Shown here: in pieces, positions 13,794 to 51,228 of the stretch
How the letters are laid out: each line of letters opens with the position of its first letter
How positions within the stretch are numbered: the stretch's first letter is position 1
Source of the DNA: Thermoplasmata archaeon
GTDB lineage: Archaea; Thermoplasmatota; DTKX01; JAHFTX01
Direction: 5' to 3'
Length of the DNA stretch: 64,000 nucleotides
Assembly: GCA_023265395.1 (NCBI GenBank)
Contig: JAHFTX010000006.1
Coordinates: 696 to 64,695 of the forward strand
Made by a program: the position numbers and the translations under genes
The notes under the pieces: model-generated
Seen by the model: only the letters and a program-made list of their open reading frames with translations
What the model was told of the DNA's origin: nothing
The model's database searches: none

Positions 13794-14282
13794 ATGGCCG
13801 AGGAGCCTGCCCCCGGTGCGATCCAGCGCGATGGGGTGCCCTACGGTCCCAACGTCGGCGACGGGACACGCATCTGGCACCATCACAACGTCTATCGCGC
13901 CGCGAAGATCGGGCGCGAATGCAACATCGGCTCCTTCTGCGAGATCCGTCACCGCGTGACCATCGGCGATCGGGTGCGCATCCAGGCCTTCACCTTCGTC
14001 TGCGAGGAGGTCACCATCGAGGATGACGTCTTCATCGGACCGCATGTCTGCTTCACCAACGACAAGCTTCCGCCCTCCAAGGGAACGGCCTGGCAGCCGA
14101 CACTGGTCAAGGCGGGAGCGGCCATCGGTGCCGGTGCCGTCATCCTGCCGGGGGTGACGATCGGCGCGGGTGCGCTAGTCGGTGCTGGTGCCGTCGTCAC
14201 CAAGGACGTCCCCGCCGGCACAGTCGTCGTGGGCAACCCCGCGCAAGTGGTCGGACCTCGTCCTCCAGCGACTGAGGCGTAG
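13794..14282 (+). CDS. Left-handed beta-helix N-acetyltransferase (WbpD-like)
   Basis: Hexapeptide repeats: IGRECNIGSFCEIRHRVTIGDRVRIQ...AAIGAGAVILPGVTIGAGALVGAGAVVTKDVPAGTVVVGNPA. Confidence 0.92.
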   Translation: MAEEPAPGAIQRDGVPYGPNVGDGTRIWHHHNVYRAAKIGRECNIGSFCEIRHRVTIGDRVRIQAFTFVCEEVTIEDDVFIGPHVCFTNDKLPPSKGTAWQPTLVKAGAAIGAGAVILPGVTIGAGALVGAGAVVTKDVPAGTVVVGNPAQVVGPRPPATEA

Positions 14283-14304
14283 TGCCCCCCCTTTTTGCCG
14301 TTCG

Positions 14305-17300
14305 ATGAGTGATGCCCTGAAGGAACGCTTAAGCAACGCCTCGACTCGTGCATCAGGGTCGCTGTCGTGGCGCGGGGCGTGGCAGATGCGTCTTGGCACC
14401 GTCTCGGTCCGCTCCGGACAGGTCGTCGGGCTGGTCCTGCTGCTCCTCACCGCGGGGGTGCCGTTGCCCGGCAGCGATGGCTCGCTCAGTGGGGGGGCGT
14501 CGAGCAACCTCTTCGGCTCTCTAGGGTCGTATGTCCTCAACGGCAACACCAGCGCGGGCTGGGCAGGCTGGAGCGTCGCCCCGATAGGTGACTTCGATGG
14601 CGATGGCTACGACGACTTTGCGGTGGGCGCTCCTGGGGATCTGGATGGGTTCGCTCTGGCCGCTCCCGGCCACGTCGAAATCGTCTTTGGACGCGGGGCG
14701 CCAATGGAGACGCCGCAGATCCTCCAACAAGCAGCCGCCGCCGATGGTCTTCGTCTGACCGGGTTGCAGGACAAGGACCAGTTCGGACGGTCCCTTGCAG
14801 CGCTCGGAGACTTCGATGGTGACGGGTTCGACGATTTTGCGGTCGGGGCGCCAAATCACAAGGTAGTCCTGAAGAACGGAGCTGGACGGGTCTATGTGAT
14901 TCGCGGTGGTGATGGCGATGGCAATGGTGCAGATATCGATGCGGAAGCGGCCGACATCGACACCAACACTTTCCACTGGGATGGGTTGCACGCCGACGAC
15001 CGGGTCGGCTTTTCTGTTTCGGGGGCCGGGGACGTCACCCGTGATGGCAGGGGCGAGCTGCTGGTGGGGGCGCCGGGCTACTCCACCCCTCCCGTTTCAG
15101 ACGATGCAGGAGTGGCCTACCTCATCGATGGCCAATCGTGGAACGATGGGGGGGTGGGGGACGGGGGCACTATCGATTCCGTGGTACATTCCGAATTCAG
15201 AGGCGTCGGCCTCAACGGGCACTTTGGGAACACCACGGCAGGTTGGGGTGACTACAACAAGGATGGTCTCCTCGATGTCGTCATCGGTGCTCCTGACCTC
15301 TCGCCATTGGGCACGACCCTTCCGGGCCGGATCTACGTCTATTATGGCAGCAACGATGGCTGGGGGGCGATAATCGGCGTCGGGCTCGCTGGAGACATCT
15401 TCGACGGACTGAAGAACGACCATCACTTGGGATGGTCCCTCGCCAACATCGGTGACACCGATGGCGATCAGTATGACGACCTGCTCGTGGGGATGTACGG
15501 GGTAGAGAGCGATACGTCTGACGTGATCTCGGGGGAGGATTATCTCCTCTTGGGTCAGGATAGACCTTGGAGGGGGGAGGGGCAGGACATCGGTGACGTC
15601 GCGATGCCCTCCATCATCGCCCCGCAGAACAGCCTTCACATCTTTGGTTTCCCTGTCGGCGCTGCTGGTGACCTCTCTGGGGACACCTGGGCGGACATCG
15701 CAGTAGCGGCCCTGTCCGAATACGACATCGGCTGCCTTCCGGCAGCCGCCGAACAGACCACGTATGTCCGCGCCGGGACCGACCAGCTGACGAACACGGT
15801 GCAGATGGCCAGCCTCACGCCCAGCTACAAGGAGAACTGTGTGAATCGCCCCAAGCTGGCGCCGCAATCGGTCGCGTCGGCCGGTGACTTCGATGGCGAT
15901 GGTGTCGATGAGCTGCTGCTGGGCGGCTGGTCCTCCGACGCGGCCGCTCCCAACGGGGGCGCCGCCTACCTGCTCAACCCAGGGTCCAACAGCGAACCGA
16001 GCCAGCCGAGCGACTTGAAGTTCTACGCCGACCCGGCCTACTCCATCCCCGTCAGCTGGGCTGATGTCGGGCACCGCGTCTACATCCAGCTCGATGCGAC
16101 GGACCCTGATGCCCTCAACGCCAACGTGGCACGACTGCGCGTACGTGCCGATGAGGGGGTGTGGCACACCATACGCGCCTACGAGACCGGCCACAACACC
16201 GGCCGCTATCGGACGTACCTCGACCTGCAGTCGTGGACCGACCTGCACCACCACATCATGGGCGTCGCCATCGGTCAAACGCTTCGTGTCGAGGTCGAGG
16301 CCCTCTCCAACGGAGTCGGCCATACCATATCGATCGGGCCACTGGGGCTCGGCCCGCTGCCGTGGCAGCAGGATGCGACAGAGGACCAGCCCTTCCTGCT
16401 CGGCCTGGTCGTGCAGAATGCGACTGCCCCCTTGGTGGACGCTGTGGCAGGCGCGAACTGGTTGACCTTCGATGCGAGCAACTGGACGGTCGGCGGCACA
16501 CCCGACAACGCTGCAGTCGGTGGCGTTTCGGTCAATGTCACGGTCACCGACGCCTTCGACGTCTCTGTCTTGCGCACCTACCTCATCACGGTACACAACG
16601 AACCCCCGGCAGTCATCGGCCCATTGGTCGCCCCCGATGCCGTCCAAGATGTCCCGTACTCGCTCGATCTCAACAGCACTGACGATGGCCAAGGGACGAT
16701 CACGTGGGTGATCGACCAAGGACCGGCATGGTTGTCGATCGATGGCGCGGGAAGGCTCAATGGCACGCCGAGCAACGGCGATGTCGGGATGAGCGACCTG
16801 AATGTCAGCGTCGATGACGGCAATGGCGGCATCGATACGTGGACGGCTGCTCTGACCGTGCTCAATGTCAACGACCCGCCGACGGTCCTGACCACGGTGA
16901 TGCCGGATGTCGTCGATGAGGACAGTCTGTTGCTGGTGACCCTCCAGGGAAGCGACCCGGACCTCGACGACACGGACCTGGTCTGGAACCTCAGCGGGGG
17001 GGATCCGTGGCTCTCCATCGGTCCTGAGAATGGTACGTTGACGGGGACCCCCAGCAATGCCGATGTCGGCGCCCACGAACTGAGCGTGACGTTGACCGAT
17101 CGTGGCGGAGCGACAGACACGCGTGATTGGACCTTGCAGGTACGCAACGTCAACGACCTTCCCACCTTCATCAGCAGCCCCCCATTGGGGGCCTCGGTCG
17201 GCGCCCCGTATGAGTACAAGGCGCTGGTCGAGGAGGTCGATCTCGGTGACACCGTCAACTTCTCGCTTTCGAGCCCGCCCGCTGGCATGACTGTCGACCG

Positions 17301-20166
17301 AGCGACGGGCTTCGTGCAGTGGGCGCCAGATCCGACCCAAGTCGGGCCGTTCGGCGTGACCATCGTCGCCAGCGATGGCCATGGTGCGACCGAGCAGGTC
17401 TACGAGGTCGTCGTCCGCGCCTCCGGAGGCCCACCCCTGGCACAGCTGCTCGCGCCCAAGGATACCCAGGTGGTCAATACCCTCACCCCCTCGCTCAGCT
17501 GGAGTGGCAGCGACCCCGACAACGATGAGCTCACCTACGACGTCTATCTCTCGTCGTCGCGTGCCCAGTCGGGCACCCTCGCTGGGATTGCCGTGATAGC
17601 GGAGAACATCACGGAGACCTTCATCACTCTCGATCCGCTGACCCCCAACGCAACCTATTACTGGACCGTCATCCCCAGCGACGGGACGGCTCCGGGAAGC
17701 TGCGCCCAGGGTGTGTGGAGCTTCTCCATCGCTGCCGATGCGACGATCAACGCGCCGCCGCGATTCCTCAGTGAGCCGCCGCTGACCGCGCTCATCGGGG
17801 CAACCTACAGTTACGACGTCGCTGGAGACGACCCCGAAGGGATAGGGCTCACCTTCGCTCTGGAGCAAGGCCCCGATGGCATGACCCTGACCGCCTCAGG
17901 CGAGCAAGGCGCCCAGGTGCGGTGGGTCCCCCAGGCTGGCCAGCAGGGGACGGTCCAGGTGGTCCTGCTGCTCAGCGATGACGCGACCACCATCACGCAG
18001 GGCTTCTCGATCCGCGTGGGGGACTCGACGAACTCCCCGCCAACAGTGACCCTCGACTCCCCCGAGGATGGCGAGGTCTTGCAGACCACCATCGTGCAGC
18101 TGCGGTGGTCGCTGACCGACGTCGACGGTACGCTGCTCAATAGCACCATCTACCTCTCGACCGATCAATCGCTCGTCGAACGTCACCACGAGATCAGCCA
18201 GCTGACGGTGCTCTCGCAGAGCAAGAACCAATACCGCCTCCCCATCCCGCTCAAGCCCACCATCGTCTACTACTGGACCATCGTCGTCGATGATGGCGTC
18301 TTCGTCACCCCGGCACCGCGGGTGTTCTCCTTCACCATCGATTCGAAGGCGACCGAGAACCACCCCCCCACGGCCATCGGTCCCGCCGTGGTCAACCTCA
18401 CGGTCGACAAAGGTGCCCACATCCAGCTGCTCGCCAGCGACCATGAGCACGCCACGTTGACCTTCGCCCTCTCGAGCGGACCGCCAGGACTGACCGTCTG
18501 GCCCGGCGGCGAGCTCGTCTGGACGCCTCACGAGGAGAACATCGGGATCACCACCGTGCGGTGGACCGTCTCAGACGGGCTAACGACGACCGAAGGGGTG
18601 ACGGTGCTCAACGTCCGGGCCGCGGGCAGAGGGGACCCCAACGACCCGGTGGTGTTCCACCTGAGCACCCTCCCCGTGCACCTGAGCGGGCTGCTCGCGC
18701 TGCTGGCGGCAGTGGCGATCGGTGCGATCCTCGCGCTGTTGCTGGTGGGCGCTCGTCGGAAGCGCCGCAGCAGTGGAGCGGAGGGCAGCGCCACCAGTGG
18801 CGGCGTGTCAGGAGGGTCGGGTGCCAGCGGTGCAGCGGCGGCAGGAGCCGCCTCGATGGTGGTGCCGATGGAAGCAGCGGCCAGCGACGAGGTCGATCCC
18901 TTCCACATCGCCTCGGTGCTGGTGATGCTCGACGACGGGCGCCTCATCATCAGCCGACATGCCCCCGCGGCCGTCGGGAGCACCTCCGCGCCGACCTCGG
19001 AGGAACTGATGCCCGAGGAGCTGCTCAGCTCGATGCTGGTGGCCATCCGCTCCTTCGTCAGGGAGTCCTTCAAGACGGAGGCAGGCCTGCAGCAGTTCGC
19101 CTTCGACCGCTACCAGGTCGTGCTGCGTGCCTCCGGTCCCGTGCTCATGGCGGTCCTGGTCGAAGGCACGCCCCCGCCGGCGCTCGAAGAGTCGATCGAC
19201 CGGACGCTCTTGGCCCTCACCACCAGTTACGGCGCTGCCATCGCCACCTGGGACGGCGACCTGACGCTCTTCTCGGGAGCGGGCGCCACCCTCGAACCGA
19301 TCTTCGCCCTCGAGCACCAGCTGGCCCAGAAGGCGGTCACCCACGAGGTCCGCCTGCGCTCGGGGCTCGAGTTCTTCCAGGGCTACGTCCGCCTCAAGGT
19401 CGCCGTGCTCAACGACACCTCCGAGGTGGTCACAGACTGCGAGTTGCAAGTGCGGTACGACCGGCAGTACCTCTTCCTCGACCGAGTCGAACCCGCCTTG
19501 GAGCGGGACGGCTCGACGGTGCTGGTGGGCACGGTCAGCCCCGGGGGGAAGAAGACCGTGGCCTTCTTCCTCGATCCGCAGATCTGTCAGGAGACGGCCC
19601 TGGATGCCACGCTCTTCTTCAAGGACGCCAAGGGCGAGGCGCACCACGTCGCCATGAAGCGTCGCCACGTCGACGTCGTCTGCCCGGTGTTCTACACCCC
19701 CTCGACGATCAACTCGGCGATCCTGCGGCGGTTGCTGAGCAAGGCCACCGAGCAGGACGTGCGGACCTACCAGCCACCTGCGGGGACCTCGTTGATGGAC
19801 TTCTACAGCCGCGTCAAGGGGGTCCTCGAGGGATTCCACATCAGCCTCGTGCGCGAACTCACCCAAGACGATGCGCCCCATGGGGTCGTCCCGACGACGG
19901 TCGCATGGTACTATGGGGTCTCCTCAGGCAGCCAAGAGGAGATCGTCCTGTCGGTGGCCACCGACCCGCGCAGCCAGACCGTCTCGGTGACGGTGGCGAC
20001 CTCCAACGTCGCGACCTTGACAGGGCTCTTGGCCGAGCTGCACCACCGCATCAGCGCCGCGATCAGTGGTGCGCGGCCACACCGGGAGGCCATCGAAGGG
20101 CTCACCGAGCGGTCGATGCGCCTGCTCCAGCGCGTCGATGAGGCGGAACTCGAGGTAGCGGAATAG
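14305..20166 (+). CDS. Giant membrane-anchored FG-GAP propeller / cadherin-like adhesin with cytosolic longin/roadblock-like domain
   Basis: Seven FG-GAP motifs (GDFDGDGYDDFAVGAP, GDFDGDGFDDFAVGAP, GDVTRDGRGELLVGAP, GDYNKDGLLDVVIGAP, GDTDGDQYDDLLVGMY, GDLSGDTWADIAVAAL, GDFDGDGVDELLLGG); He_PIG/CADG-like repeats; FnIII-like repeats; TM LSGLLALLAAVAIGAILALLLVGARRKRR; ~430-aa cytosolic tail. Confidence 0.9.
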   Translation: MSDALKERLSNASTRASGSLSWRGAWQMRLGTVSVRSGQVVGLVLLLLTAGVPLPGSDGSLSGGASSNLFGSLGSYVLNGNTSAGWAGWSVAPIGDFDGDGYDDFAVGAPGDLDGFALAAPGHVEIVFGRGAPMETPQILQQAAAADGLRLTGLQDKDQFGRSLAALGDFDGDGFDDFAVGAPNHKVVLKNGAGRVYVIRGGDGDGNGADIDAEAADIDTNTFHWDGLHADDRVGFSVSGAGDVTRDGRGELLVGAPGYSTPPVSDDAGVAYLIDGQSWNDGGVGDGGTIDSVVHSEFRGVGLNGHFGNTTAGWGDYNKDGLLDVVIGAPDLSPLGTTLPGRIYVYYGSNDGWGAIIGVGLAGDIFDGLKNDHHLGWSLANIGDTDGDQYDDLLVGMYGVESDTSDVISGEDYLLLGQDRPWRGEGQDIGDVAMPSIIAPQNSLHIFGFPVGAAGDLSGDTWADIAVAALSEYDIGCLPAAAEQTTYVRAGTDQLTNTVQMASLTPSYKENCVNRPKLAPQSVASAGDFDGDGVDELLLGGWSSDAAAPNGGAAYLLNPGSNSEPSQPSDLKFYADPAYSIPVSWADVGHRVYIQLDATDPDALNANVARLRVRADEGVWHTIRAYETGHNTGRYRTYLDLQSWTDLHHHIMGVAIGQTLRVEVEALSNGVGHTISIGPLGLGPLPWQQDATEDQPFLLGLVVQNATAPLVDAVAGANWLTFDASNWTVGGTPDNAAVGGVSVNVTVTDAFDVSVLRTYLITVHNEPPAVIGPLVAPDAVQDVPYSLDLNSTDDGQGTITWVIDQGPAWLSIDGAGRLNGTPSNGDVGMSDLNVSVDDGNGGIDTWTAALTVLNVNDPPTVLTTVMPDVVDEDSLLLVTLQGSDPDLDDTDLVWNLSGGDPWLSIGPENGTLTGTPSNADVGAHELSVTLTDRGGATDTRDWTLQVRNVNDLPTFISSPPLGASVGAPYEYKALVEEVDLGDTVNFSLSSPPAGMTVDRATGFVQWAPDPTQVGPFGVTIVASDGHGATEQVYEVVVRASGGPPLAQLLAPKDTQVVNTLTPSLSWSGSDPDNDELTYDVYLSSSRAQSGTLAGIAVIAENITETFITLDPLTPNATYYWTVIPSDGTAPGSCAQGVWSFSIAADATINAPPRFLSEPPLTALIGATYSYDVAGDDPEGIGLTFALEQGPDGMTLTASGEQGAQVRWVPQAGQQGTVQVVLLLSDDATTITQGFSIRVGDSTNSPPTVTLDSPEDGEVLQTTIVQLRWSLTDVDGTLLNSTIYLSTDQSLVERHHEISQLTVLSQSKNQYRLPIPLKPTIVYYWTIVVDDGVFVTPAPRVFSFTIDSKATENHPPTAIGPAVVNLTVDKGAHIQLLASDHEHATLTFALSSGPPGLTVWPGGELVWTPHEENIGITTVRWTVSDGLTTTEGVTVLNVRAAGRGDPNDPVVFHLSTLPVHLSGLLALLAAVAIGAILALLLVGARRKRRSSGAEGSATSGGVSGGSGASGAAAAGAASMVVPMEAAASDEVDPFHIASVLVMLDDGRLIISRHAPAAVGSTSAPTSEELMPEELLSSMLVAIRSFVRESFKTEAGLQQFAFDRYQVVLRASGPVLMAVLVEGTPPPALEESIDRTLLALTTSYGAAIATWDGDLTLFSGAGATLEPIFALEHQLAQKAVTHEVRLRSGLEFFQGYVRLKVAVLNDTSEVVTDCELQVRYDRQYLFLDRVEPALERDGSTVLVGTVSPGGKKTVAFFLDPQICQETALDATLFFKDAKGEAHHVAMKRRHVDVVCPVFYTPSTINSAILRRLLSKATEQDVRTYQPPAGTSLMDFYSRVKGVLEGFHISLVRELTQDDAPHGVVPTTVAWYYGVSSGSQEEIVLSVATDPRSQTVSVTVATSNVATLTGLLAELHHRISAAISGARPHREAIEGLTERSMRLLQRVDEAELEVAE

Positions 20167-26003: not shown

Positions 26004-27173
26004 TCACTGGCTGGCGCTCGGGACGCGACCGTCGGATTGCGGGGCAGGGAGCTCCCGCGGTCCCGGTCGGTCCACCAGCAGCAAGAAGTTGGACGAGACG
26101 TCGGTCAAACCCATCTCCTGGATACCCTGCATCAGCTCGGAGAACCGCACTCCTCGCGCCGTCAGGTGATAGCCCTCCTCCCGCGTCGACGCGATGACGT
26201 CATCCTTTGCCAGCTTCTTGAGATGGAACGCTAGGGCGCTGCTGTTGATGACCCCCAAGGCGTCCTTGATGGCGCCAAAGGGCTGCGGTCCCTTCTGCTG
26301 CAGGAAGTGGACGATATCGACGCGCGCCTTGTTGGTCAGGCTGTCCCCGAAGGTCTTGAAGAAGTCCTGAGTCACCAGCGACCCGATGTCTTGGAGCACC
26401 CCGCTCTCGAGCCCCGTCGGATCGGTGGTCAGGATGATACGATGCTTGGGACCAACCAGTTGTTCGTACAGGACGTAGATGAACTTCTTGACGTTGGTCC
26501 ACTGGTGGATCGCGATCAGCTGTTCGAGCCCCTGGAGCAGGATGATCCCCCGCTCGTGACGGGTGGTGAAGCTCTGGATGACCCCCTTGAGGTCGACCAG
26601 CCTGCGCGGGGAGATGCGCACGCCCTCGCCGACCTCCTCGGTCATCCACACTCCCTCGGCCCCTTCGAGGTGGTAGCGCGCGATCACGGCGATCGGGTCG
26701 TCGCGGGTGACCAACAGCATCGGGGCGTCGAGATTGGCCGTGCTCAGGAACTCGAAGTAGTCGATGCCCTCGAACTGCTCGATCAACCGCACGTTCTCCA
26801 TGTTCGTCCGGATCATCTTCTCCTGATGGATGTGTTCGAGCTTCTCGACGAGGTCCTTGGCCTTGAAGGGCTTGGGCAGGTAGTCGTACGCTCCCAGCTT
26901 CATCGCCTCGACGGCGCTCTCGACGGTGCCGAAGCCCGTGAGCATGATCACGAAGGTCTCGGGGTGGGTCTGCCGGACGTGGGCGAGGAGCTGCAAGCCG
27001 TCAATCTGCGGCATCTTGAGGTCGGTGAAGACGACGTCGAAGCTCTGGCTCCGCAACCGTTCGAGGGCGACTGTACCGGACGTCGCTGTGACCACGGCGT
27101 AGTCATGGCGGCTGAGGAATCGTTCGATCTGCTCGAGGATCAGGCTGTCGTCATCCACCACTAGGACGTCCAT
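26004..27173 (-). CDS. Response regulator: REC + DUF835-like + winged HTH
   Basis: MDVLVVDDDSLILEQIERFLSRHDYAVV...FTDLKMPQIDG...KPF; middle LVTRDDPIAVIARYHLEGAEGVWMT...RGIILLQGLEQLIAIHQWTNVKKFIYVLYEQL...RIILTTDP; C-terminal HTH. Confidence 0.85.
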   Translation of the reverse strand: MDVLVVDDDSLILEQIERFLSRHDYAVVTATSGTVALERLRSQSFDVVFTDLKMPQIDGLQLLAHVRQTHPETFVIMLTGFGTVESAVEAMKLGAYDYLPKPFKAKDLVEKLEHIHQEKMIRTNMENVRLIEQFEGIDYFEFLSTANLDAPMLLVTRDDPIAVIARYHLEGAEGVWMTEEVGEGVRISPRRLVDLKGVIQSFTTRHERGIILLQGLEQLIAIHQWTNVKKFIYVLYEQLVGPKHRIILTTDPTGLESGVLQDIGSLVTQDFFKTFGDSLTNKARVDIVHFLQQKGPQPFGAIKDALGVINSSALAFHLKKLAKDDVIASTREEGYHLTARGVRFSELMQGIQEMGLTDVSSNFLLLVDRPGPRELPAPQSDGRVPSASQ

Positions 27174-28971
27174 GACATACCCCGGGCAGTCGCACGACCA
27201 CCCTCGCGCCCCCCGCAGCAACGTTGCTGGCGGATATAGTCCCTTGGTGGGCCCGTACCAGTTGGTGACAGACGGCCAGCCCCAGCCCCGTCCCCTTGCC
27301 CACCGGCTTGGTGGTGAAGAACGGGATGAACAATCGGGCGAGGGCCTCCTTGGAGAATCCCGGACCATCGTCGCGCACGCTCACCTCCATCTCCTCCCCA
27401 TCGATGGCGGTGGAGATCTCGACGGTGCCCCCGCCGCCAGCTTCGAGGGCGTCGATGGCGTTGCTCAGCAGGTTGATCAGTACCTCACGCACCTGGTAGG
27501 GGTCGGCGCGCAGCAGCGGGCGGCCTGGGGCCAGCGCGGTGGTGATGGTCACCCCTGCGGGGACCGGTTGGAGGTCGGCGATCGCCGCCGCCACCTGGTC
27601 ATCGATGCACACCTCGGCACGGTGCAGCGAGCCACGGCGTGAATAGTGCAACAGGTCGCGCACGATCCGCGCGGCCATCTCGACGCGGTCGCGGATCTTT
27701 GCCAGGTCACCTGCGAGGGAGGGGTCGTCGACGCCCTCCTCGAGGGCGTTTGAGGCGATCAGCTCGATGGCGGCCAGGGGGGTGTTGAGCTCATGGGCGA
27801 TCCCGCTGGCCAGGGTGCCGACCGCTGCCATCTTCTCGCTCTGCAGGAGCTGCTCCTCGAGCTCCCGTTGATCGGTGACATCCTCGACCAGCAGCAGGAT
27901 CCACGAGGTCCCCACGTCTTGGACCAACGAGGCGGTCATCTCCCCGACGAAGGTGTGCCCATCGTGCGCACGGAACGGGAGGTCGGAGAATCGGTGCTGT
28001 CCTGCGACGAGCTGCTGCAGCAGGTTCCCAAAGGGCCGAAGGTCATGCCCGACGGGGAGCAAGTCCCACCAGGCGACGGCGTCCGACTGGCTGGGAGCGA
28101 CCGTTGTCGGTGCGGCTGCGGTCGCCCCCCGCGCGGCAGGAGCGCTCGCAGGTCCGCTCCCGAGCATCGAGAGTTTGTGCACCTGGCTGGTGCCGCTGCC
28201 GCGCATGGGACTGCGAGCCGCCAGGCGCACCGGCATGGGCAGTACCGGACCGCCGATGGTCAGCTCCCCTTGCGTCGTCCCCGTCACGGAGAGGGAACGA
28301 CCGGTCGGCGAGGTCCCAAAGAGGGCGCTCCAGCGGGGGTTGGCCTCCACCAGCAGTCCCTGGGGGGAGAAGACCGCGATGGCAGAGGCAGCCCCCTCGA
28401 AGATGGTCTGGTACCGTGTCGCCAGGGAGCGCACCTGCTCACGCAGGAAGTCCTCCGTGCGCACCCGCTGCAACCGCACTTGGAGCAGTGGCGTCCCACC
28501 ACGTGTGCGGCCGCCCAGCTGCAGGGTGATCGCCCGAAGGCTGGCGCGCAGGAAACGGGGGCTTCCGGCCCCATCGTCGAGCGGCAGGACGGGGCTCTCG
28601 CGCTCCTCGGGGACCTCTTCGCTCCCCAGCTGCTCATGGAGCCACAAAGCCAGGGCAGGGAAGGCTTGACGCAGCGGCATGCCCCGCAACGGCAGGCTCC
28701 GCAACGTCGGAGTGCGCAACAATCGCTCCGCCTCTCGCGAGAGCGCGACGATGTTCTGGTTCCCATCCAGGACCACCAATGGGCTCGCGACCCTGGTCAG
28801 AAGGCCCAGGCTGGGGTGGTCCCAGGTCTCCTTCGCCAAGGTCTCCGACATCGGGGCAGGCTCGTCCTTCGGGGTCTGGGGGGGCACCTTGGGTGCCTCA
28901 GGCGCAGGGAGGGGGTCCGCGCGATCGGACCACAGCAGACGGCGGCTTCGCGGAGGGTCGTTGGTGCTCAT
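27151..28971 (-). CDS. PAS-containing sensor histidine kinase
   Basis: SEKMAAVGTLASGIAHELNTPLAAIELIA (HisKA), NLLSNAIDAL, DDGPGFSKEALARLFIPFFTTKPVGKGTGLGLAVCHQLV (HATPase); overlaps the response regulator start. Confidence 0.92.
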   Translation of the reverse strand: MSTNDPPRSRRLLWSDRADPLPAPEAPKVPPQTPKDEPAPMSETLAKETWDHPSLGLLTRVASPLVVLDGNQNIVALSREAERLLRTPTLRSLPLRGMPLRQAFPALALWLHEQLGSEEVPEERESPVLPLDDGAGSPRFLRASLRAITLQLGGRTRGGTPLLQVRLQRVRTEDFLREQVRSLATRYQTIFEGAASAIAVFSPQGLLVEANPRWSALFGTSPTGRSLSVTGTTQGELTIGGPVLPMPVRLAARSPMRGSGTSQVHKLSMLGSGPASAPAARGATAAAPTTVAPSQSDAVAWWDLLPVGHDLRPFGNLLQQLVAGQHRFSDLPFRAHDGHTFVGEMTASLVQDVGTSWILLLVEDVTDQRELEEQLLQSEKMAAVGTLASGIAHELNTPLAAIELIASNALEEGVDDPSLAGDLAKIRDRVEMAARIVRDLLHYSRRGSLHRAEVCIDDQVAAAIADLQPVPAGVTITTALAPGRPLLRADPYQVREVLINLLSNAIDALEAGGGGTVEISTAIDGEEMEVSVRDDGPGFSKEALARLFIPFFTTKPVGKGTGLGLAVCHQLVRAHQGTISASNVAAGGARVVVRLPGVCHGRPSGG

Positions 28972-29197
28972 TCTCCCACTCTCGCCTGGTGAACCAATTG
29001 CGCGTCGCGCCGGGACACGCACGCTCCTGCCACCTCTGCCTCTGGGAGGAGGCAGCCATCAACCTTGCGTGGCCCAAGCGCTCGGTCCCCCCGACGAATC
29101 AGGGGCCATCCTGGGTGGCCGTTCCCCAGCCAGCGAACCTACGGTAATCCCGTAAGGATGCTGTGTCTTTATAGGACTACATATACCTCTAACCCAG

Positions 29198-40315: not shown

Positions 40316-43300
40316 TCAGCGGCCTGCCCGCCGGCGCCGCCGCCGACGGACCCACGCCGGCACGCCCACCACCACGGCGATGCCCGAGCCGATCACAAGC
40401 AGGATCAAGAGTGCGGTCATCGGTGGCCCCAGGACGTGGGGAGGGCTTTCCTCCGAGACCACGACGACGACCTTCTCGTCCGCCGAGGCGTTCCCGTCGT
40501 CGACGACCCGCAGCCGCACCAGATAGGTGCCGCTCCGATGGTAGGTGTAACTGGTCGCACCGGTGACGTTGGAGACGAAGTCGTCGACCCCATCGCCGTC
40601 GAAGTCCCAGGAGTACTGGACGATCCGACCGTCGATGTCGATCCCCTGGCCCTCGACGATCATGCGTTCCCCGATCAGGAGTTGGCGCGCGCCGCCGGCG
40701 AGCGCCCGTGGGGGTTGGTTGGCAGGCACCTCCAGGCGCAGGCGGTTGTCCGTCTCGTTCTCCTCGGGGGTTGCGCCGGAGGGGTCGAGGATCGCCGTCA
40801 GCAGGTGGGCGGAGGGCTCCCCTTCGAAGGGGACCAGTACGCTGGTGGTCGCGCCCGCACGCAACAGGGGCACCTGGCGGTCCTCTGCGACGGCGCCATC
40901 GACGAGGATCCGGACTACCAGCCCATCGAGGTCCTGTACGCCCCGGTTGTGGACCTCCACTGCGATGTCGTAGCGGTTGAGACTGAGGTTGCCGCCGCTC
41001 CGGACGGTGCGGTACTGGTGGCGGGTGAGGTTGAGCAGCTGGGCTTGGGTCCCCTGTGCAGTCTCGAAGGTGACGTTGACCGGTGCACCGACCGCGGGGC
41101 GCCCGATCTGGAGCTGCGCCTGCTGCATGCTCTCGTTGGGCAGGGCCAATGCGCCGGTGGCATCCAGCCGGAGGTGCAACTCGTCCCCTGCGCCGGGTTC
41201 GGGTGGTGCGGCCAGGCCGATGACCGAATCTCCGCCTGCCTCGAGCCCGACGATCCCCCGATGCGTCGTCGCAGCGGCGGCGCCATCCAGCTGCACCTGC
41301 CAGGGGCGCGCAGAGGTCGCTCCGGAGTTCCGCACGGTCACGAAGAACCACCGGGCCTGCCCGGCAGGATCGAGGCCCAGGGAGACGTTGCTGATGACCA
41401 CGGAGGGTCGAGGGACGTCCCACTGCACCTGGAGCCGGTTGTCCCCGGTCTCGAGCTCGCCTCCCAGATGTTCGGCGTTGACGATCACCGCCACCTCCGT
41501 GGCGCCGGCGACGGCGGTGCGCAGCACCTGGAGGTCGGCACTGGCACCGGCGCCCAGCGCTGGGCACGGTCCGGTTGCGATCCCATTGCCGTCGGCAAGG
41601 GCCACCAACCGTGGTGCTCGGAGCGTGGCACCGCCGTCGTTGTGCAGTCGCAGGGGCAGCGCTGCCAGCAGGCCGTCGGGCAGTGGCGGCGGAGCCAGGC
41701 CCGAGAGCCGCCACTCGGGGGCGCTGACGTTCAGACCCACCGCCTGACGGTTGTCGAGCGTCAGTCGTTCGGTGACGTTCAGGCCGGTGACCTCGGCGAC
41801 GATCTGGTGGCGCCCTCCGACGGCTTGGAGGATGGTCCCCACGTCGCTGCCGCCCGCAGGGAGGGCTCCGATCACGGTGGTCGCCACGGGTTCACCGTCG
41901 AGGCTGAGGTTGAGCAGGATGGGACCGAGCAAGGGCTGGTCGGCCCGCAGATGGACACTCAGCAGCACCCGCTCCCCGTCGATGGGCTGCGGAGGGCTCA
42001 GCGTCACTCCAGAGACCTCGATGTTGGGTGCGGCCGCCGTCGGCCCGTCGGTGCGCGGCAGCTCCCCAAGGATGACGACTTGGGCGGATCGATGTCCCCC
42101 CTCGAGGGCCTCGGGCACGAGGTCATCGGGGTCCGCTAGGAGTGCCAGGTCGACCGTCCCTTCGAGGCTCGCGACGTGGGGGACGACCGCGCTGACGATG
42201 AGCGTACCACCACCCTCGAGGCCGGGGGCACTGGCTCGCCCGACCTGCGCACCGTCGAGCTGAAGGGCGGCGCTGACCGTGCGCAGGGTCGGCCCCCCGA
42301 TGTTCGTCAGGTGGCCTAGCACCAGCAGTCGGCCATCGTGCAAGTCATAGGCCTCGAGCGCACCAGGGAGCAACTGGGCAGGTTGCGCGACCACGGAGAG
42401 GTTGAGGAGCTGGTCATCCTCCGCGGCTTCGGCGATGGCGTCGGCAGGATCGATCGTCGCCCGTAGGATGTGTCGGCCCGCTAGGGCGACAGCCTCGACG
42501 CCGACCCACGTGCTGTTGCCGCTGCCCAGCGGGGGCAAGCGCGCCTGCGCAAGCAAGGCGCCATCTTGCGTGAAGAGGACCGACCCAGGGAGGATCGATG
42601 GCCCTCCGAGGTTGGTCACCAACATCTGCACGATGACCGGAGCGCCATCGATGCCGCTGCCGAGGACCGCCAGCTCCAGGCCCTCGAGCTGGGGAGGGTC
42701 AGGGCCCTCAAGCAGGAGGGTGCGGACGTTGTCTGCCTCGCTGGCCTCGCGCAGCAGGTCCGTCGGGTCGACGAGGCATTGCACCACATGGGACCCTGGT
42801 CCGAGCGTGACTCGCACGACGGCTGCTGCATGGCCGTCGCTGGGAAGGCCACCGATGGCCCATTGCTGGACCACGTCCCCGTCGGCGCGCACCTGCACGA
42901 GCGCCTCGCCGAGCAGGGGTGCGCCGTCGTTGTGCACCGTCACGCGCACCAGCAGGCTGCCATCAGCCGGGGCGGCGTCGGTGGGCAACACGACGGGCTC
43001 GAACGTCTCGATGCGCAGCTGCGGTGCCGGGATATCGACGATTCCCAGCGGGGTCACTCCGCGATCGGCCTCATTGGCCTCCGTCAGCGCGTCGGCGGGA
43101 TCCAGCAACAGGCCCAGCTCATGCAGCCCCGGAGCGAGCGGGACGCTGAGGGTAAGGGACTGGTTCGACAGCCCGGTCATTGGGAGCAACCGCACCTGGC
43201 TGAGCACCTGCCCGTCACGCAGCAGGAGCGCTGGCGGAGGGTCAGCGACCGCGCCCCCGCGGTTCTGGATCGTCAGTTGCAGCGGTAGCGGCAGACCCGC

Positions 43301-46093
43301 GGCCTGCTGCACCGGAAGGGATGGTCGCACCACGAAGAGGTCGGGCACCGTCACCCCAGCGGTGCCCACGGCCAGCTGGTCGGAGAGGTCCGAAGCTCCC
43401 CACTGCTCCAAGGGATCGACCACGGCAGCGATGGCGTGGAAGCCCGGCGACAGCCGAGCGCTCAACGCCACGGTCACGGCGCCATCGAGGGAGACACCAT
43501 TGAGGGTGCGCCGTCCGAGGAGCTCGCCGTCAGCATAGAAGCGGACCTCCGCTCCGCCACCGAGCGCCCCGGCGCCACGGTCCGTGACGGTCGCAAAGAG
43601 GGTGGTCTGCTCGCCCGCGACGGCCAACGGCGGGACCGCTTCGATGGAAGCCAGCGCCAGGTCAGGACGTTGGAGCGAGAGGTTGGCTGTCGCGCGGTTG
43701 TCCCCCTCGTCGAGTTCCAGCAGATGGCCTTGGTGGTCGAGCCAGACGAGATACTGGTGCTCCCCGCCCATGGCAGTGGTATGAAAGGTCATCGTCGAGA
43801 CGTCGGCCTCGAAGGTCAATGACCCGACCGCGGAGAGGCGTCCATCCGTCAAGAGGGCTACCGAGGGCGGTCCTAGGGCATCGGCGTCCCCGGTGGCCCT
43901 GACGCTGACGATCACGTCCAGAGGATCACCGACGTGCGGCTGGGCGGGGTCGAGCCGCAGTGCACTGACCGTCAGGTCGACCGCCTGCAAGGGGGGAACG
44001 GCGATACCGCTGGGAAGCGCGATCGCCATCGTGTTGTCGAGCTCATTGGCCTCAGCAACCGCGTCGGCGGCATCGAGGATGGCCGAGAGCACGCCCCCCT
44101 CGAGTGTGGTCGAGAAGGAGAGTGCACGGACTCCACCGCCGACGAGCCCAGGGAGGCTGCGGCTGCCCACGAGCACCCCGTCGGCACGGATCTCGACCAG
44201 TAACGGCCGCAGCGTGCTGCCTCCGAGGTTGCGCGCCAGCAGCGTTACCGTCACCGGGTCACCCAGCCCAGCATCGGCTGGGGAGAACTGCAGGTCATCC
44301 ACCCGCAGCTGCGGGGCCAGGCCCACGGGCGTGCGCAGCTGGGTCCGATCGCCCAGGGTCGCATCGGGGACCACCCCAGAGGGATCGACCTCGACGCTCA
44401 CGAGGGCGGCACCAAGGGTGACGACCCATGGCAGGTCCAGCGTCGTGGTACGGTTGGCACCCAGCCCGGCGATCGTCGAAGAGGCGATGGGCGCCCCATC
44501 CTGCAAGAGCACGACGTCGAAGGAGCGCACGGTCGGCGCACCGACGTTGCGGACTTCGATGTGCACCAGGCCGTTGGCGCCATCGATCCCGGTGCTGGGC
44601 ATGGTGACATTGGTCAGGCGCAGGTCCGGCCTCGAAGTCGTGGCGTTGGTGGACGCGGCATTGTCTCCCCAGCGAGATTCGAGCACGCGGCGGTCCTCGT
44701 TGACGCTCAGCCGATACAGATGCACCCCCGAGCGGTGGGGCAGGTGCAGCGTCACCGTGGTCGTGCCGTCGGCCGGGGGCACGGGCAGCAACACGCTGGC
44801 CGTCTCGCCGCCATCGACCGTCGCGACCACCGCGACGTCGCCCAGGTGGTCCCCGCCGGAATTGCGGACCTGCGCGCGCACCTCGATGGTGCCCCCGTCG
44901 ATCGGGACGAGCGGACTGATCAGCAGGTTCTCGACACTCAGTTGCGGTTGGGGGATGACGACGAGGAGCTGGGTACCATCCGGGGCGCGGTCGTCCTCCA
45001 AGAGGAGCCCTTCAGGATCGACCTCGACGCGCAAGAGGTGGCTTCCTCCGGTGGCTCCCCAGGGGAAGATGAGGGTCGTGTTCTCGCCGGCGGCCAGTCC
45101 CACCACGCTCGCACTTCTGATGGGACTGCCATCGACGGTCAGGCGCACCGGGACCCGAGCGAGGGTGCTGGCGGCACCATTGGTGATGTTGGCGACGACC
45201 TGGGGCTGCTCCCCGGAGCGAATCCCCTCGGGCCCGACGGCCGTCCCGTTGGCGTGCAGCAGCCGGAGCGGGCCGATGCCCAGATCGGGCAACTGTTGTC
45301 CCAGGATCGCAACGACGGAGTTGTCGACCTCCGTCCCTTCGGCGATGGTGTCGGCAGTGTCGGCGATGCCGCGCAGGACGAGCGGACCGTTGCCCATGCG
45401 GGCCGTCGCCCGCAGGTGCCAGGTGCTCCCCGCCGACAGGCCTGCGACGGTCTGGGCCCCGATCGTCTGCTCGCCGGCGCTCAGGCGCACGACGAAGGGG
45501 CGTACGGTGGTGGCGCCGTCGTTATGCAGCCGCAGGTCGACGCTGACCTGCTCCCCCGGCAAGGGGTCGGTCGTAGGCTCGATGGCCAGCGGCTCGAGGC
45601 GGAGCTGCGCACGGGGCACGCTGACGACGGTGTCGGCGGCATTATTGGCACGATCGGCCTCTCCCAACCCCAGTGCGGTCGCCTCGACACGCAACTGATG
45701 GATGCCTGCCTCTGCGGGCCACTCCAACACCGCCGAGGTGGTGACGGCGAGCACCTGCACGGAAGCCGCAGCCTGCGGGAGGCCGTCGACAGAGAGTTGG
45801 AGCCGGACCTCGTCCGGCAGGGGGACAAGTGTGCTCCGCAGTGTCACGACCACCTGCAGTGGCAGGCCGTCGACCGGTGCCGGCGGCGTCAGGGCGATGC
45901 CCTCGACCGATAGGTCGTCCCCAGAGCCCAGTTGGCGGCCGAGCGTCGTCATGGCAGGCCGGGGTCCCTCGATGCCGTCCTCGATCGGGGCGGTGGCGAT
46001 GAGCTGCAAGGGGGATGTCAGCACCACGGCGAGCAGGATCGCCGTGATGGTGCGGAACGAGCGCAGCGACGCTGCCGAAGGCCGTGCGGCCAT
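40316..46093 (-). CDS. Giant CARDB-repeat surface protein with C-terminal PKD domain and TM anchor
   Basis: MAARPSAASLRSFRTITAILLAVVLTSP signal; ~16 degenerate CARDB-like repeats; PKD GIDIDGRIVQYSWDFDGDGVDDF...TYHRSGTYLVRLRVVDD; TM then RRRRRRRAGR. Confidence 0.88.
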   Translation of the reverse strand: MAARPSAASLRSFRTITAILLAVVLTSPLQLIATAPIEDGIEGPRPAMTTLGRQLGSGDDLSVEGIALTPPAPVDGLPLQVVVTLRSTLVPLPDEVRLQLSVDGLPQAAASVQVLAVTTSAVLEWPAEAGIHQLRVEATALGLGEADRANNAADTVVSVPRAQLRLEPLAIEPTTDPLPGEQVSVDLRLHNDGATTVRPFVVRLSAGEQTIGAQTVAGLSAGSTWHLRATARMGNGPLVLRGIADTADTIAEGTEVDNSVVAILGQQLPDLGIGPLRLLHANGTAVGPEGIRSGEQPQVVANITNGAASTLARVPVRLTVDGSPIRSASVVGLAAGENTTLIFPWGATGGSHLLRVEVDPEGLLLEDDRAPDGTQLLVVIPQPQLSVENLLISPLVPIDGGTIEVRAQVRNSGGDHLGDVAVVATVDGGETASVLLPVPPADGTTTVTLHLPHRSGVHLYRLSVNEDRRVLESRWGDNAASTNATTSRPDLRLTNVTMPSTGIDGANGLVHIEVRNVGAPTVRSFDVVLLQDGAPIASSTIAGLGANRTTTLDLPWVVTLGAALVSVEVDPSGVVPDATLGDRTQLRTPVGLAPQLRVDDLQFSPADAGLGDPVTVTLLARNLGGSTLRPLLVEIRADGVLVGSRSLPGLVGGGVRALSFSTTLEGGVLSAILDAADAVAEANELDNTMAIALPSGIAVPPLQAVDLTVSALRLDPAQPHVGDPLDVIVSVRATGDADALGPPSVALLTDGRLSAVGSLTFEADVSTMTFHTTAMGGEHQYLVWLDHQGHLLELDEGDNRATANLSLQRPDLALASIEAVPPLAVAGEQTTLFATVTDRGAGALGGGAEVRFYADGELLGRRTLNGVSLDGAVTVALSARLSPGFHAIAAVVDPLEQWGASDLSDQLAVGTAGVTVPDLFVVRPSLPVQQAAGLPLPLQLTIQNRGGAVADPPPALLLRDGQVLSQVRLLPMTGLSNQSLTLSVPLAPGLHELGLLLDPADALTEANEADRGVTPLGIVDIPAPQLRIETFEPVVLPTDAAPADGSLLVRVTVHNDGAPLLGEALVQVRADGDVVQQWAIGGLPSDGHAAAVVRVTLGPGSHVVQCLVDPTDLLREASEADNVRTLLLEGPDPPQLEGLELAVLGSGIDGAPVIVQMLVTNLGGPSILPGSVLFTQDGALLAQARLPPLGSGNSTWVGVEAVALAGRHILRATIDPADAIAEAAEDDQLLNLSVVAQPAQLLPGALEAYDLHDGRLLVLGHLTNIGGPTLRTVSAALQLDGAQVGRASAPGLEGGGTLIVSAVVPHVASLEGTVDLALLADPDDLVPEALEGGHRSAQVVILGELPRTDGPTAAAPNIEVSGVTLSPPQPIDGERVLLSVHLRADQPLLGPILLNLSLDGEPVATTVIGALPAGGSDVGTILQAVGGRHQIVAEVTGLNVTERLTLDNRQAVGLNVSAPEWRLSGLAPPPLPDGLLAALPLRLHNDGGATLRAPRLVALADGNGIATGPCPALGAGASADLQVLRTAVAGATEVAVIVNAEHLGGELETGDNRLQVQWDVPRPSVVISNVSLGLDPAGQARWFFVTVRNSGATSARPWQVQLDGAAAATTHRGIVGLEAGGDSVIGLAAPPEPGAGDELHLRLDATGALALPNESMQQAQLQIGRPAVGAPVNVTFETAQGTQAQLLNLTRHQYRTVRSGGNLSLNRYDIAVEVHNRGVQDLDGLVVRILVDGAVAEDRQVPLLRAGATTSVLVPFEGEPSAHLLTAILDPSGATPEENETDNRLRLEVPANQPPRALAGGARQLLIGERMIVEGQGIDIDGRIVQYSWDFDGDGVDDFVSNVTGATSYTYHRSGTYLVRLRVVDDGNASADEKVVVVVSEESPPHVLGPPMTALLILLVIGSGIAVVVGVPAWVRRRRRRRAGR

Positions 46094-46104
46094 CGCTGCG
46101 CCCC

Positions 46105-46332
46105 CTAGATCCCAGCCAGGCCGACGACAGCGGCGGTGACGACGAGGACCATGAGCAACAACAACAGGTGGGCGTGGGGGAGGAAGCGATTCTGCTCCAG
46201 ATCGTCGCTCTCGCCCTCCTTGAAGAGGATCCTCATGGCATCGAGCGTGCCCTGGAGGGGTCCCATCGGCGGCGCGTCGGAGACATGCTCCTCGGGCGCT
46301 CCGGTGGGTTCCTCCTCGCTCTGCTGCGCCAT
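46105..46332 (-). CDS. Small single-TM protein upstream of the CARDB gene
   Basis: MAQQSEEEPTGAPEEHVSD...LEQNRFLPHAHLLLLLMVLVVTAAVVGLAGI; 12 nt from the next CDS; TATA-like GGTAATATACC 25-35 nt upstream. Confidence 0.65.
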   Translation of the reverse strand: MAQQSEEEPTGAPEEHVSDAPPMGPLQGTLDAMRILFKEGESDDLEQNRFLPHAHLLLLLMVLVVTAAVVGLAGI

Positions 46333-46356
46333 CCATCCTCTGGTACCTAGGAGGTC

Positions 46357-46367
46357 GGTAATATACC
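46357..46367 (-). promoter_or_regulatory. TATA-box-like element for the 46332 operon
   Basis: GGTAATATACC, A/T-rich island in a GC-rich region. Confidence 0.5.
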
Positions 46368-46450
46368 ATCTGGTGGAGGCACAATCGGGCCGCGGTGACG
46401 TCGCTGCAAAGGGCGCACATCCGCCAGCACGCGCCACCCTCGGCGGATCC

Positions 46451-48940: not shown

Positions 48941-49759
48941 ATGGGATATCCACCGCGACGCCAGGGCCTCGACGGGCTTTTCGACGACATCGATCATGCC
49001 GTCGGGGGCGCCACGGGCAACATCCGCACCTGCCCCTGTGGCCGAGGGGGCGTCATCGAATGGGTCCCCCAGTACGCCCAGTGGTATTGTCGCACGTGCA
49101 GCCAGTACATCAAGCCGGCCCAGCTCCAGCAAGTCCTCCCCCAATCGCCCGTCTGTCCACGCTGCAGTCAGCCTGCGCTGTTCTTCTCCCAATACTACCA
49201 ACGCTGGTACTGCAACTCGTGTAAGCAGTACTCCGATTCACCCTCGACGGCAGGTGCGGCCGCGGCGGTGCCTTCAGGCCCACCGGTCGGGTCGCCGATG
49301 GCAGCGCACGGCGGCGCAGGGCCCGGTGGCGTTGCGCAGCAGTCGGCGCAGACGGGGACGATAATCGAGGACCTCTTCCTGCTCTACAACGACGGGCGGT
49401 TGATCCGGCACCACACCCGGCGGCTCAAGCCCCACATGGACAGCGACATCCTCACGGGGATGCTCAGCGCCATCCAAGACTTCGTGCGCCAGACGATCGC
49501 GACCGACGATGACTCGACGCTCGAGCAGATCCACGTCGGCCGCAACAAGATCTTCCTTCGCCGGGGCCGGTACCTGAGCATCGCCGCGATGGTCGATGGC
49601 GAGGACGTCGAGGGGATCAGCGGGCAGCTCCAGCGGTTCGTCACCGAGGTCGAGCGCGATCATGAGGGCGTGCTCAAGGACTGGCAGGGGGACATCGCCT
49701 CGCTCAAGCCCCTCAACGAGCCGCTCCAGCGGCTGCTCACCACCGGCTTCCAGGGCTGA
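48941..49759 (+). CDS. Double Zn-ribbon protein with C-terminal longin/roadblock-like domain
   Basis: TCPCGRGGVIEWVPQYAQWYCRTC and VCPRCSQPALFFSQYYQRWYCNSC; C-term GTIIEDLFLLYNDGRLIRHHTRR...ILTGMLSAIQDFVRQTI homologous to the 14305 product tail. Confidence 0.85.
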   Translation: MGYPPRRQGLDGLFDDIDHAVGGATGNIRTCPCGRGGVIEWVPQYAQWYCRTCSQYIKPAQLQQVLPQSPVCPRCSQPALFFSQYYQRWYCNSCKQYSDSPSTAGAAAAVPSGPPVGSPMAAHGGAGPGGVAQQSAQTGTIIEDLFLLYNDGRLIRHHTRRLKPHMDSDILTGMLSAIQDFVRQTIATDDDSTLEQIHVGRNKIFLRRGRYLSIAAMVDGEDVEGISGQLQRFVTEVERDHEGVLKDWQGDIASLKPLNEPLQRLLTTGFQG

Positions 49760-51228
49760 TGCTGCAGCCAACGCTTATGGCGCTGCCCCAAGATGGGCGA
49801 GCCATGGTCGTGCCGACCTCGTCTGAGCCCACGTTCGGCCTCTTGGGCCTACCCCTTGCGGCAGCGGCAGAGCGCTGCGCCCTGCGCAAGGTCAAGGTCG
49901 CTGTGGTGGGCTTCGGGTACGTCGGCAGCTGCATCGGCGCTGTGCTGGCGCACAAAGGCTTCCTGGTGCATGGCATCGAGGTCGATCCGAGGATCGTCGC
50001 CGCCGTCCGCGCCGGTCGGGCACCGGTCGAGGAACCCGGCCTCTCGGAGCTGATCGCCGACGTCGTCCTCGAAGAGCGCCTGACGATCGGGAGTGATCTC
50101 TCGGCAGTCTCCGGGTGCGAGGTGGTGCTCGTGACCGTCGGAACGCCGCTGGGGCCCGACCACGGTCCAGACCTCGGAGCCGTCATCGCCGTCGCCAAGG
50201 CCCTCGCCCCACACTTGCGCAAGGGGCACCTGGTGATCCTCAAGTCGACGGTGGTGCCCAAGACCACCACCGAGGTCGTCGTGCCGCTGCTGCAGCACGG
50301 CAGCGGGCTGCGCCAGGGTGTCGACTTCGGAGTCGCCTTCTGCCCCGAGCGCTTCGAGGAGGGCAACGCCCTGCGGCAGCTGCGCAACCTCCCCGTGGTG
50401 GTCGGCGCGACCAGTCCGCAAGTCGGCGCGACCGTCGCCGCCTTCTGGGAGTCGGCAGGGCTCACGACGATGCGCGTCGCCTCCCCCACCGCAGCGGAGC
50501 TGGTCAAGCTGGCGGACAACCTCTGGATCGACCTCAACATCGCCCTGGCCAACGAGCTGGCGCTGCTCGCCGCCCCCCTGGGAGTCGACGCTCTGGAGGT
50601 GATCGCGGCGGCCAACACCCTGCCCAAGGGCCAGCACGCGGTCAACATCATGACTCCCGGGGCTGGCGTCGGCGGCAGCTGCCTGACCAAGGACCCCTAT
50701 TTCGTCCATCAACTGGGGAGGACCTTGGGGATGGAGCTGCGCCTGCCCTTGGCCGGGCGCGCGGCCAACGAAGCGATGCCTGCGGTGATGGCTACCCTCG
50801 CCGCGGAGGTGGCGCAGGCTATCGGCAAGGCACCGGGCAGCTGCGCCGCGCTGCTGCTGGGAATCTCCTTCAAGCCCGACACCGATGACATCCGCGGGAC
50901 GACGGCCCTTCCCCTGGCCGAAGCGCTGGGCGCCCGTGGGTTTGCGGTCCTCTGCCACGACCCGTGCATCCGATCGGGGCGGCGACCTGCACTGCCCACG
51001 GGGGCCGCCTGGGTCGATGACCTGTTGGAGTCGGTCCGCGGGGGCCCCGTGTTAGTCCTGCATACTGCCCATGGGGTCTATCGTTCCCAGGTGGCCGCGT
51101 TGTTGACGGCGCTGCCCCGCCCCGGCGGAGTGGTCGACGGCCGTTTCGTCTTCGACCCGCAGGCCGTGGCCTCCGCGGGCCACCACTTTCGGGGGATCGG
51201 GCGGCCGCCGCTCGTGCCGCGTCCTTGA
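49759..51228 (+). CDS. UDP-glucose/GDP-mannose dehydrogenase family (UDP-ManNAc/GlcNAc dehydrogenase-like)
   Basis: VKVAVVGFGYVGSCIGAVLAHKGFLVHGIEVD; PGAGVGGSCLTKDPYF catalytic Cys motif; GISFKPDTDDIRGT. Confidence 0.93.
   Translation: MLQPTLMALPQDGRAMVVPTSSEPTFGLLGLPLAAAAERCALRKVKVAVVGFGYVGSCIGAVLAHKGFLVHGIEVDPRIVAAVRAGRAPVEEPGLSELIADVVLEERLTIGSDLSAVSGCEVVLVTVGTPLGPDHGPDLGAVIAVAKALAPHLRKGHLVILKSTVVPKTTTEVVVPLLQHGSGLRQGVDFGVAFCPERFEEGNALRQLRNLPVVVGATSPQVGATVAAFWESAGLTTMRVASPTAAELVKLADNLWIDLNIALANELALLAAPLGVDALEVIAAANTLPKGQHAVNIMTPGAGVGGSCLTKDPYFVHQLGRTLGMELRLPLAGRAANEAMPAVMATLAAEVAQAIGKAPGSCAALLLGISFKPDTDDIRGTTALPLAEALGARGFAVLCHDPCIRSGRRPALPTGAAWVDDLLESVRGGPVLVLHTAHGVYRSQVAALLTALPRPGGVVDGRFVFDPQAVASAGHHFRGIGRPPLVPRP

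Follow-up and report, generated by a model that had tools for sequence, protein, structure and literature searches.

Within the stretch of 64,000 nucleotides of a Thermoplasmata archaeon analysed here (the window), a giant surface protein, hereafter the adhesin, and a small soluble Zn-ribbon protein appeared to have a region in common. Three collinear blocks had been aligned by eye between the tail of the adhesin and the product of 48941-49759, and the original prediction took them for a longin/roadblock-like domain common to two proteins, with a possible link to small GTPases. The locus raises the question of what this domain is, how many proteins of the organism carry it, and whether the adhesin and the soluble protein are partners of each other or of something else.

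The shared domain and its copies

Compared as a single pair by BLASTP, the adhesin tail and the C-terminal half of the soluble protein share 25% identity over 134 columns (E=1e-12), which bears out the three blocks. With the soluble protein as query, a genome-wide search delivered 31 matches, among which the adhesin tail ranks 24th (E=6.3e-6). A domain profile was built from nine members, the two window copies included, and finds about 29 copies of the domain in the 2.78-Mb genome; it also matches the adhesin copy (E=1.6e-40) and the soluble copy (E=4e-49), both values being non-independent as both copies are in the profile. Judged by sequence, the two domains are homologous members of a large paralogous family. 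The domain common to two proteins was therefore correctly recognized, but its extent was understated. The region marked out for it, 18880-19400, holds the longin-like domain of the adhesin (Table 1), but a second conserved domain lay outside it and was missed, as the open frame continues to 20163.

Table 1. Positions of the adhesin, the soluble protein and their domains in the window
Feature	Position	Strand	Description	Basis
Giant surface protein (adhesin)	14386..20163	+	Probable signal peptide, FG-GAP, He_PIG/Ig-like/cadherin-like repeats, one TM helix, cytosolic tail	Within open frame 14182-20166
Adhesin TM helix	18691..18747	+		Hydropathy peak at frame residues 1505-1523
Adhesin longin-like domain	18892..19302	+	Approximate ends	Profile matches; AlphaFold2 model ma9b38316ffd8
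Adhesin appendage-like domain	19342..20061	+		Profile E=4e-109; AlphaFold2; Foldseek
Soluble protein	48941..49759	+	Two Zn-ribbons and a longin-like domain	ORF; AlphaFold2 model m62ed205b4f1c
Soluble-protein longin-like domain	49355..49735	+	C-terminal half	Profile match; Foldseek

The start of the adhesin is proposed at the methionine codon at 14386. Pfam models for FG-GAP (E=3.6e-33), He_PIG (1.6e-35) and Big_9 (2.4e-21) match the protein. The sequence ARRKRR is read directly after the TM helix and, by the positive-inside rule, places the tail in the cytosol. The Zn-ribbons of the soluble protein are matched weakly by Pfam. The stop codon of its gene overlaps the ATG of a UDP-glucose/GDP-mannose dehydrogenase frame (TGATG, 49757-49761), which suggests co-transcription of the two, provided that this ATG is used. 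Elsewhere in the window, a further giant secreted protein of 2034 residues with nine CARDB repeats and a PKD domain is encoded at 40316-46420 (-), and at 26004-29022 (-) a PAS histidine kinase adjoins a response regulator composed of receiver, DUF835 and HTH.

In the genome of the window, single-pass proteins whose ectodomains are large (FG-GAP and Ig-like in the window) have the domain as their cytosolic tail, and 12 of them contain another conserved stretch of about 240 residues. Other membrane proteins end in it, among them two with multiple TM helices and one with a tandem pair of copies. It further occurs after TPR repeats, behind the Zn-ribbons in the window and, in about six genes counted by eye, inside STAND-type ATPases, where it separates the Walker A region from the remainder of the ATPase. 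Insertions between Walker A and the rest of STAND/TPR proteins were noted at L044, L056-L058, L098, L101, L105, L107-L110, L118 and L119; the longin-in-STAND arrangement recurs across families, often beside a gene for a Rab-like GTPase. In other genomes of the phylum the domain is fused to response-regulator receivers (L088-L090, L096, L097), HEAT repeats (L096), a different double Zn-ribbon (L092) and a beta-propeller/coiled-coil/Ig protein (L104), or stands in a short frame of 151 residues (L094); the domain names for these fusions (L088-L104) are a reading of the sequences, made without profile searches. Tandem copies in one protein occur at L038, L100 and L106.

The longin-like domain was detected in 33 of the 293 sampled genomes of the phylum, and the appendage-like region of the adhesin tail in 12 of the 293. 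Copy numbers of 12 or more are confined to the genome of the window, a pair of genomes from the same class and one other genome.

Predicted folds

Sequence searches with the longin-like domain gave no Pfam, NCBIfam or PDB family above cut-off. Weak independent hints are the matches to Fuz_longin_1 (Fuz/MON1 longin 1, E=0.0018) and Robl_LC7 (E=0.013), each in two of the nine members; MON1 appears in the PDB sequence search with an E-value of about 1.

AlphaFold2 was run with 16 related sequences for the adhesin tail and 12 for the soluble protein, and reached a mean pLDDT of 79 and 72, respectively. Within the longin parts the pLDDT is mostly 60-90 in the adhesin, with one insert loop below 50, and mostly 65-93 in the soluble protein. 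Both are modelled as beta-beta-alpha-beta-beta-beta-alpha, the core fold of longin and roadblock domains. Foldseek lists 50 PDB matches for the model of the soluble protein; going by their descriptions, every one is a longin/roadblock protein or a complex containing one, namely Ragulator, the sigma and mu subunits of AP-2, AP-1 and AP-3, zeta-COP, Mon1-Ccz1, MglB, TRAPP and VAMP7. The E-values of 1e-4 to 1e-3 (best 1.5e-4, TM-score by target up to 0.68) are modest, as would be expected of a small and common fold. Longin domains are without the N-terminal helix of roadblock domains and have an extra C-terminal helix (PMC10933270); the order predicted in both models, strands first and two or more helices last, is that of a longin rather than a roadblock. 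Models and structural matches support a longin/roadblock fold for the shared domain, in agreement with the pattern recognized originally.

The second half of the adhesin tail is modelled, with pLDDT mostly 85-95, as an Ig-like sandwich of about eight strands followed by a platform of the order alpha-beta-alpha-beta-beta-beta-beta-alpha. In a Foldseek search with the whole tail, COPI gamma (1.3e-10), the AP2 alpha (2e-9) and beta2 (2.4e-8) appendages and the isolated gamma-COP appendage (1.4e-7) match best, and BBSome chains appear lower down. The succession of Ig-like sandwich and TBP-like platform is collinear with the adaptin/COP appendage over about 250 columns (E 1e-10 to 1e-7). Over both halves together the TM-scores are low, with an rmsd of about 16 A, which suggests that in the model sandwich and platform are set at a different angle from that in the appendages. 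This domain has no Pfam or PDB sequence match, and hhalign against single gamma-COP and alpha-ear sequences scored no better than shuffled controls. The predicted likeness to appendages is a structural one, and the domain may or may not share descent with the eukaryotic ears.

In Methanoperedens-type archaea the appendage-like domain is also found in proteins lacking the longin domain, N-terminal to a TM helix. At L069-L075 (Methanoperedens and Euryarchaeota MAGs) the helix is mostly followed by a C-terminal domain that by eye resembles formylglycine-generating enzyme, and genes near L069-L072 encode another, diverged appendage-like domain together with DSVVQRS motif repeats.

Rab-like GTPases and the role of the domain

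In the genome of the window no GTPase gene adjoins any domain gene, including the two in the window. The genome yields 11 matches to a GTPase profile, about eight of them canonical Rab-like GTPases with intact motifs. None of the canonical ones has a C-terminal (prenylation-type) cysteine; no prenyl anchor is thus evident, and recruitment to the membrane by a TM-anchored longin tail would follow naturally. One Rab-like GTPase of this genome carries an N-terminal Zn-ribbon (L128:1552-2349).

Among the relatives, 14 domain copies at 12 loci in eight families lie less than 1 kb from a GTPase gene (gaps of 54-968 bp), where 1.22 were expected (Poisson P=6e-11, or 4e-5 counting each family once; both values assume random placement, relatedness being allowed for in the family count alone). 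Among the domain proteins encoded beside a GTPase are STAND ATPases (L107-L110), proteins of the adhesin type (L111, L112), one with the domain in tandem (L113) and a small membrane protein (L114). All 12 neighbouring GTPases match Pfam Ras (best E=3.1e-44) and have intact G1-G5 motifs with invariant VGKTS, WD..G, NK.D and TSA. Fusions of TPR-like repeats to a Ras-like GTPase, divergent from the adjoining STAND-longin genes, were noted at L107:2843-3865 and L108:2237-3265, and no fusion of a GTPase to the domain was seen in the loci read.

The GTPase profile, built from these domain-neighbouring GTPases and used with a threshold of 130 bits, is matched in 30 of the 33 domain-positive and 3 of the 260 domain-negative genomes (n=293; Fisher 3.5e-34). 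The sampled genomes are related and thus non-independent, but the association persists by genus (21/22 versus 1/115) and by family (15/16 versus 1/27). The bias of a profile derived from neighbours is mostly answered by the independent Pfam Ras model, which agrees with it (at least 80 bits in 30/33 versus 6/260 genomes). Copy numbers of domain and GTPase correlate (rho=0.83), and in eleven genomes a single copy of the domain is accompanied by exactly one GTPase. The GTPase link suggested originally holds for the relatives by adjacency and co-occurrence, but is not visible as adjacency in the genome of the window.

The reading we favour, with a probability of about 0.68, is that longin-fold platforms, both membrane-anchored and soluble, recruit or regulate Rab-like GTPases devoid of an anchor of their own, with the ear recruiting further partners, in a non-Asgard lineage. 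The shared unit would serve as a docking or regulatory platform for Ras/Rab-like small GTPases, its anchored copies lying beneath giant adhesin or sensor ectodomains and its soluble copies on Zn-ribbon, TPR, STAND-ATPase and response-regulator proteins. The domain may bind its GTPase directly, possibly as a dimer, in the manner of MglB and the TRAPP longins. A TM-anchored tail would draw the anchor-less GTPases to the membrane, where it would set or sense their nucleotide state, possibly by GEF or GAP activity. Contact of the ectodomain, the state of the ATPase or phosphorylation of the response regulator would alter longin-GTPase binding, and through the GTPase step external contact or a two-component signal would reach cytosolic effectors. 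The appendage-like ear beside the longin domain in 12 proteins of this genome probably recruits partners through short peptide motifs.

Longin domains also act independently of GTPases, as in SNAREs. An unlikely alternative is that the domain is mainly a homo- or heterodimerisation module wiring receptors to soluble effectors, the GTPases merely sharing the same signalling repertoire. Longin/roadblock domains do typically dimerise (PMC10933270), and many copies in very different contexts, tandem ones included, suit such a role, which leaves unexplained the tight gene adjacency and the genomes that pair one domain copy with exactly one GTPase. Less probable again is that the adhesin tails are true coat or trafficking adaptors that recruit an archaeal machinery, of vesicle or ESCRT type, to cargo at the cell surface, as the match of the appendage fold to AP, COP and BBSome proteins could indicate, together with the appendage proteins of archaeal ESCRT loci and the Asgard proteins joining Vps28-C, appendage and longin (PMC11188069). 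Against this, neither Vps28-C nor a coat alpha-solenoid was seen in the domain proteins, the adhesin tail comprising only TM helix, longin and appendage without the adaptin trunk (the alpha-solenoid of the large subunits), and the appendage is absent from most domain-positive genomes. ESCRT-III (Snf7) was matched weakly and below cut-off in 3 of 15 genomes by a model that fails its cut-off in Sulfolobus too, and the weak match in the genome of the window lies more than 30 kb from the nearest domain gene. The receptor-plus-soluble-partner module first proposed, a dedicated pair of the window adhesin and the Zn-ribbon protein, is very improbable and was rejected: the domains are homologous and on the same contig, but the genes are 30 kb apart among unrelated neighbours, the soluble domain is closer to many of the about 29 paralogues than to the adhesin copy, and in a tree of the copies of this genome the adhesin groups with other adhesin tails (C6 and C4, starred branch) and the soluble copy stands elsewhere, the deep branches being weakly supported.

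Relation to known systems

Appendage regions of Ig and TBP type are known from archaeal ESCRT loci, and appendage-plus-longin proteins from Asgard archaea (Makarova et al. 2024, PMC11188069). The Asgard proteins with Vps28-C, adaptin appendage and longin and the Methanobacteriales 'Meth_adaptin' proteins share with the adhesins the combination of appendage (Ig and TBP-like) and longin in archaeal multidomain proteins; one Meth_adaptin protein has a Zn-ribbon and another a TM linker (PMC11188069). They were described in an ESCRT context, whereas here the tie is to Rab-like GTPases, and the combination serves giant FG-GAP/Ig adhesins as their cytosolic tail. It has undergone an expansion of about 12-fold in a single genome, and Vps28-C was not seen with it. 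With the bacterial Ras-like GTPase MglA and its roadblock partner MglB, and with the GTPase, roadblock and longin sets of Asgard archaea (PMC10933270), the predicted fold and the link to small GTPases are the same, but the GTPases described here match the Ras family best and the domain resides in receptors, STAND ATPases and response regulators. In strain MK-D1 such longin/roadblock genes generally lie outside the operons of their GTPases (PMC10933270), unlike the 12 loci at which the two adjoin here. AP-2 and COPI have both folds on separate subunits (sigma/zeta longins, alpha/gamma appendages); here they would be joined in one polypeptide, TM-anchored, without adaptin trunk and without significant sequence similarity to the appendages. 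Single Rab-like GTPases were noted in the euryarchaea Thermoplasmatales and Aciduliprofundum (Surkont and Pereira-Leal 2016, PMC4915359), in a paper whose main text is without the terms longin and roadblock; the GTPases here are expanded and coupled to the longin family.

Appendage domains in archaea, and their combination with longin in Asgard proteins, have thus been published before. A description of longin in Thermoplasmata or Euryarchaeota was not found in the literature searched, which leaves out most subscription journals, so that a prior description is possible. The usual view of longin domains, and of an expanded set of Rab-like GTPases, is that they are Asgard features bearing on the origin of eukaryotes. 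The present data suggest a membrane-to-GTPase switch network of a kind described so far mainly in Asgard archaea and eukaryotes. That it is a phylum-level network outside Asgard, in which adhesins with a longin and coat-appendage tail work with lipid-free Rab-like GTPases as a receptor-to-GTPase module made of vesicle-adaptor parts, we consider an even chance. If true, the components from which vesicle adaptors and GTPase platforms are built would be in use as receptor tails outside Asgard archaea, and receptor tail and GTPase together would offer a testable system for the role of longin-GTPase pairs before endomembranes.
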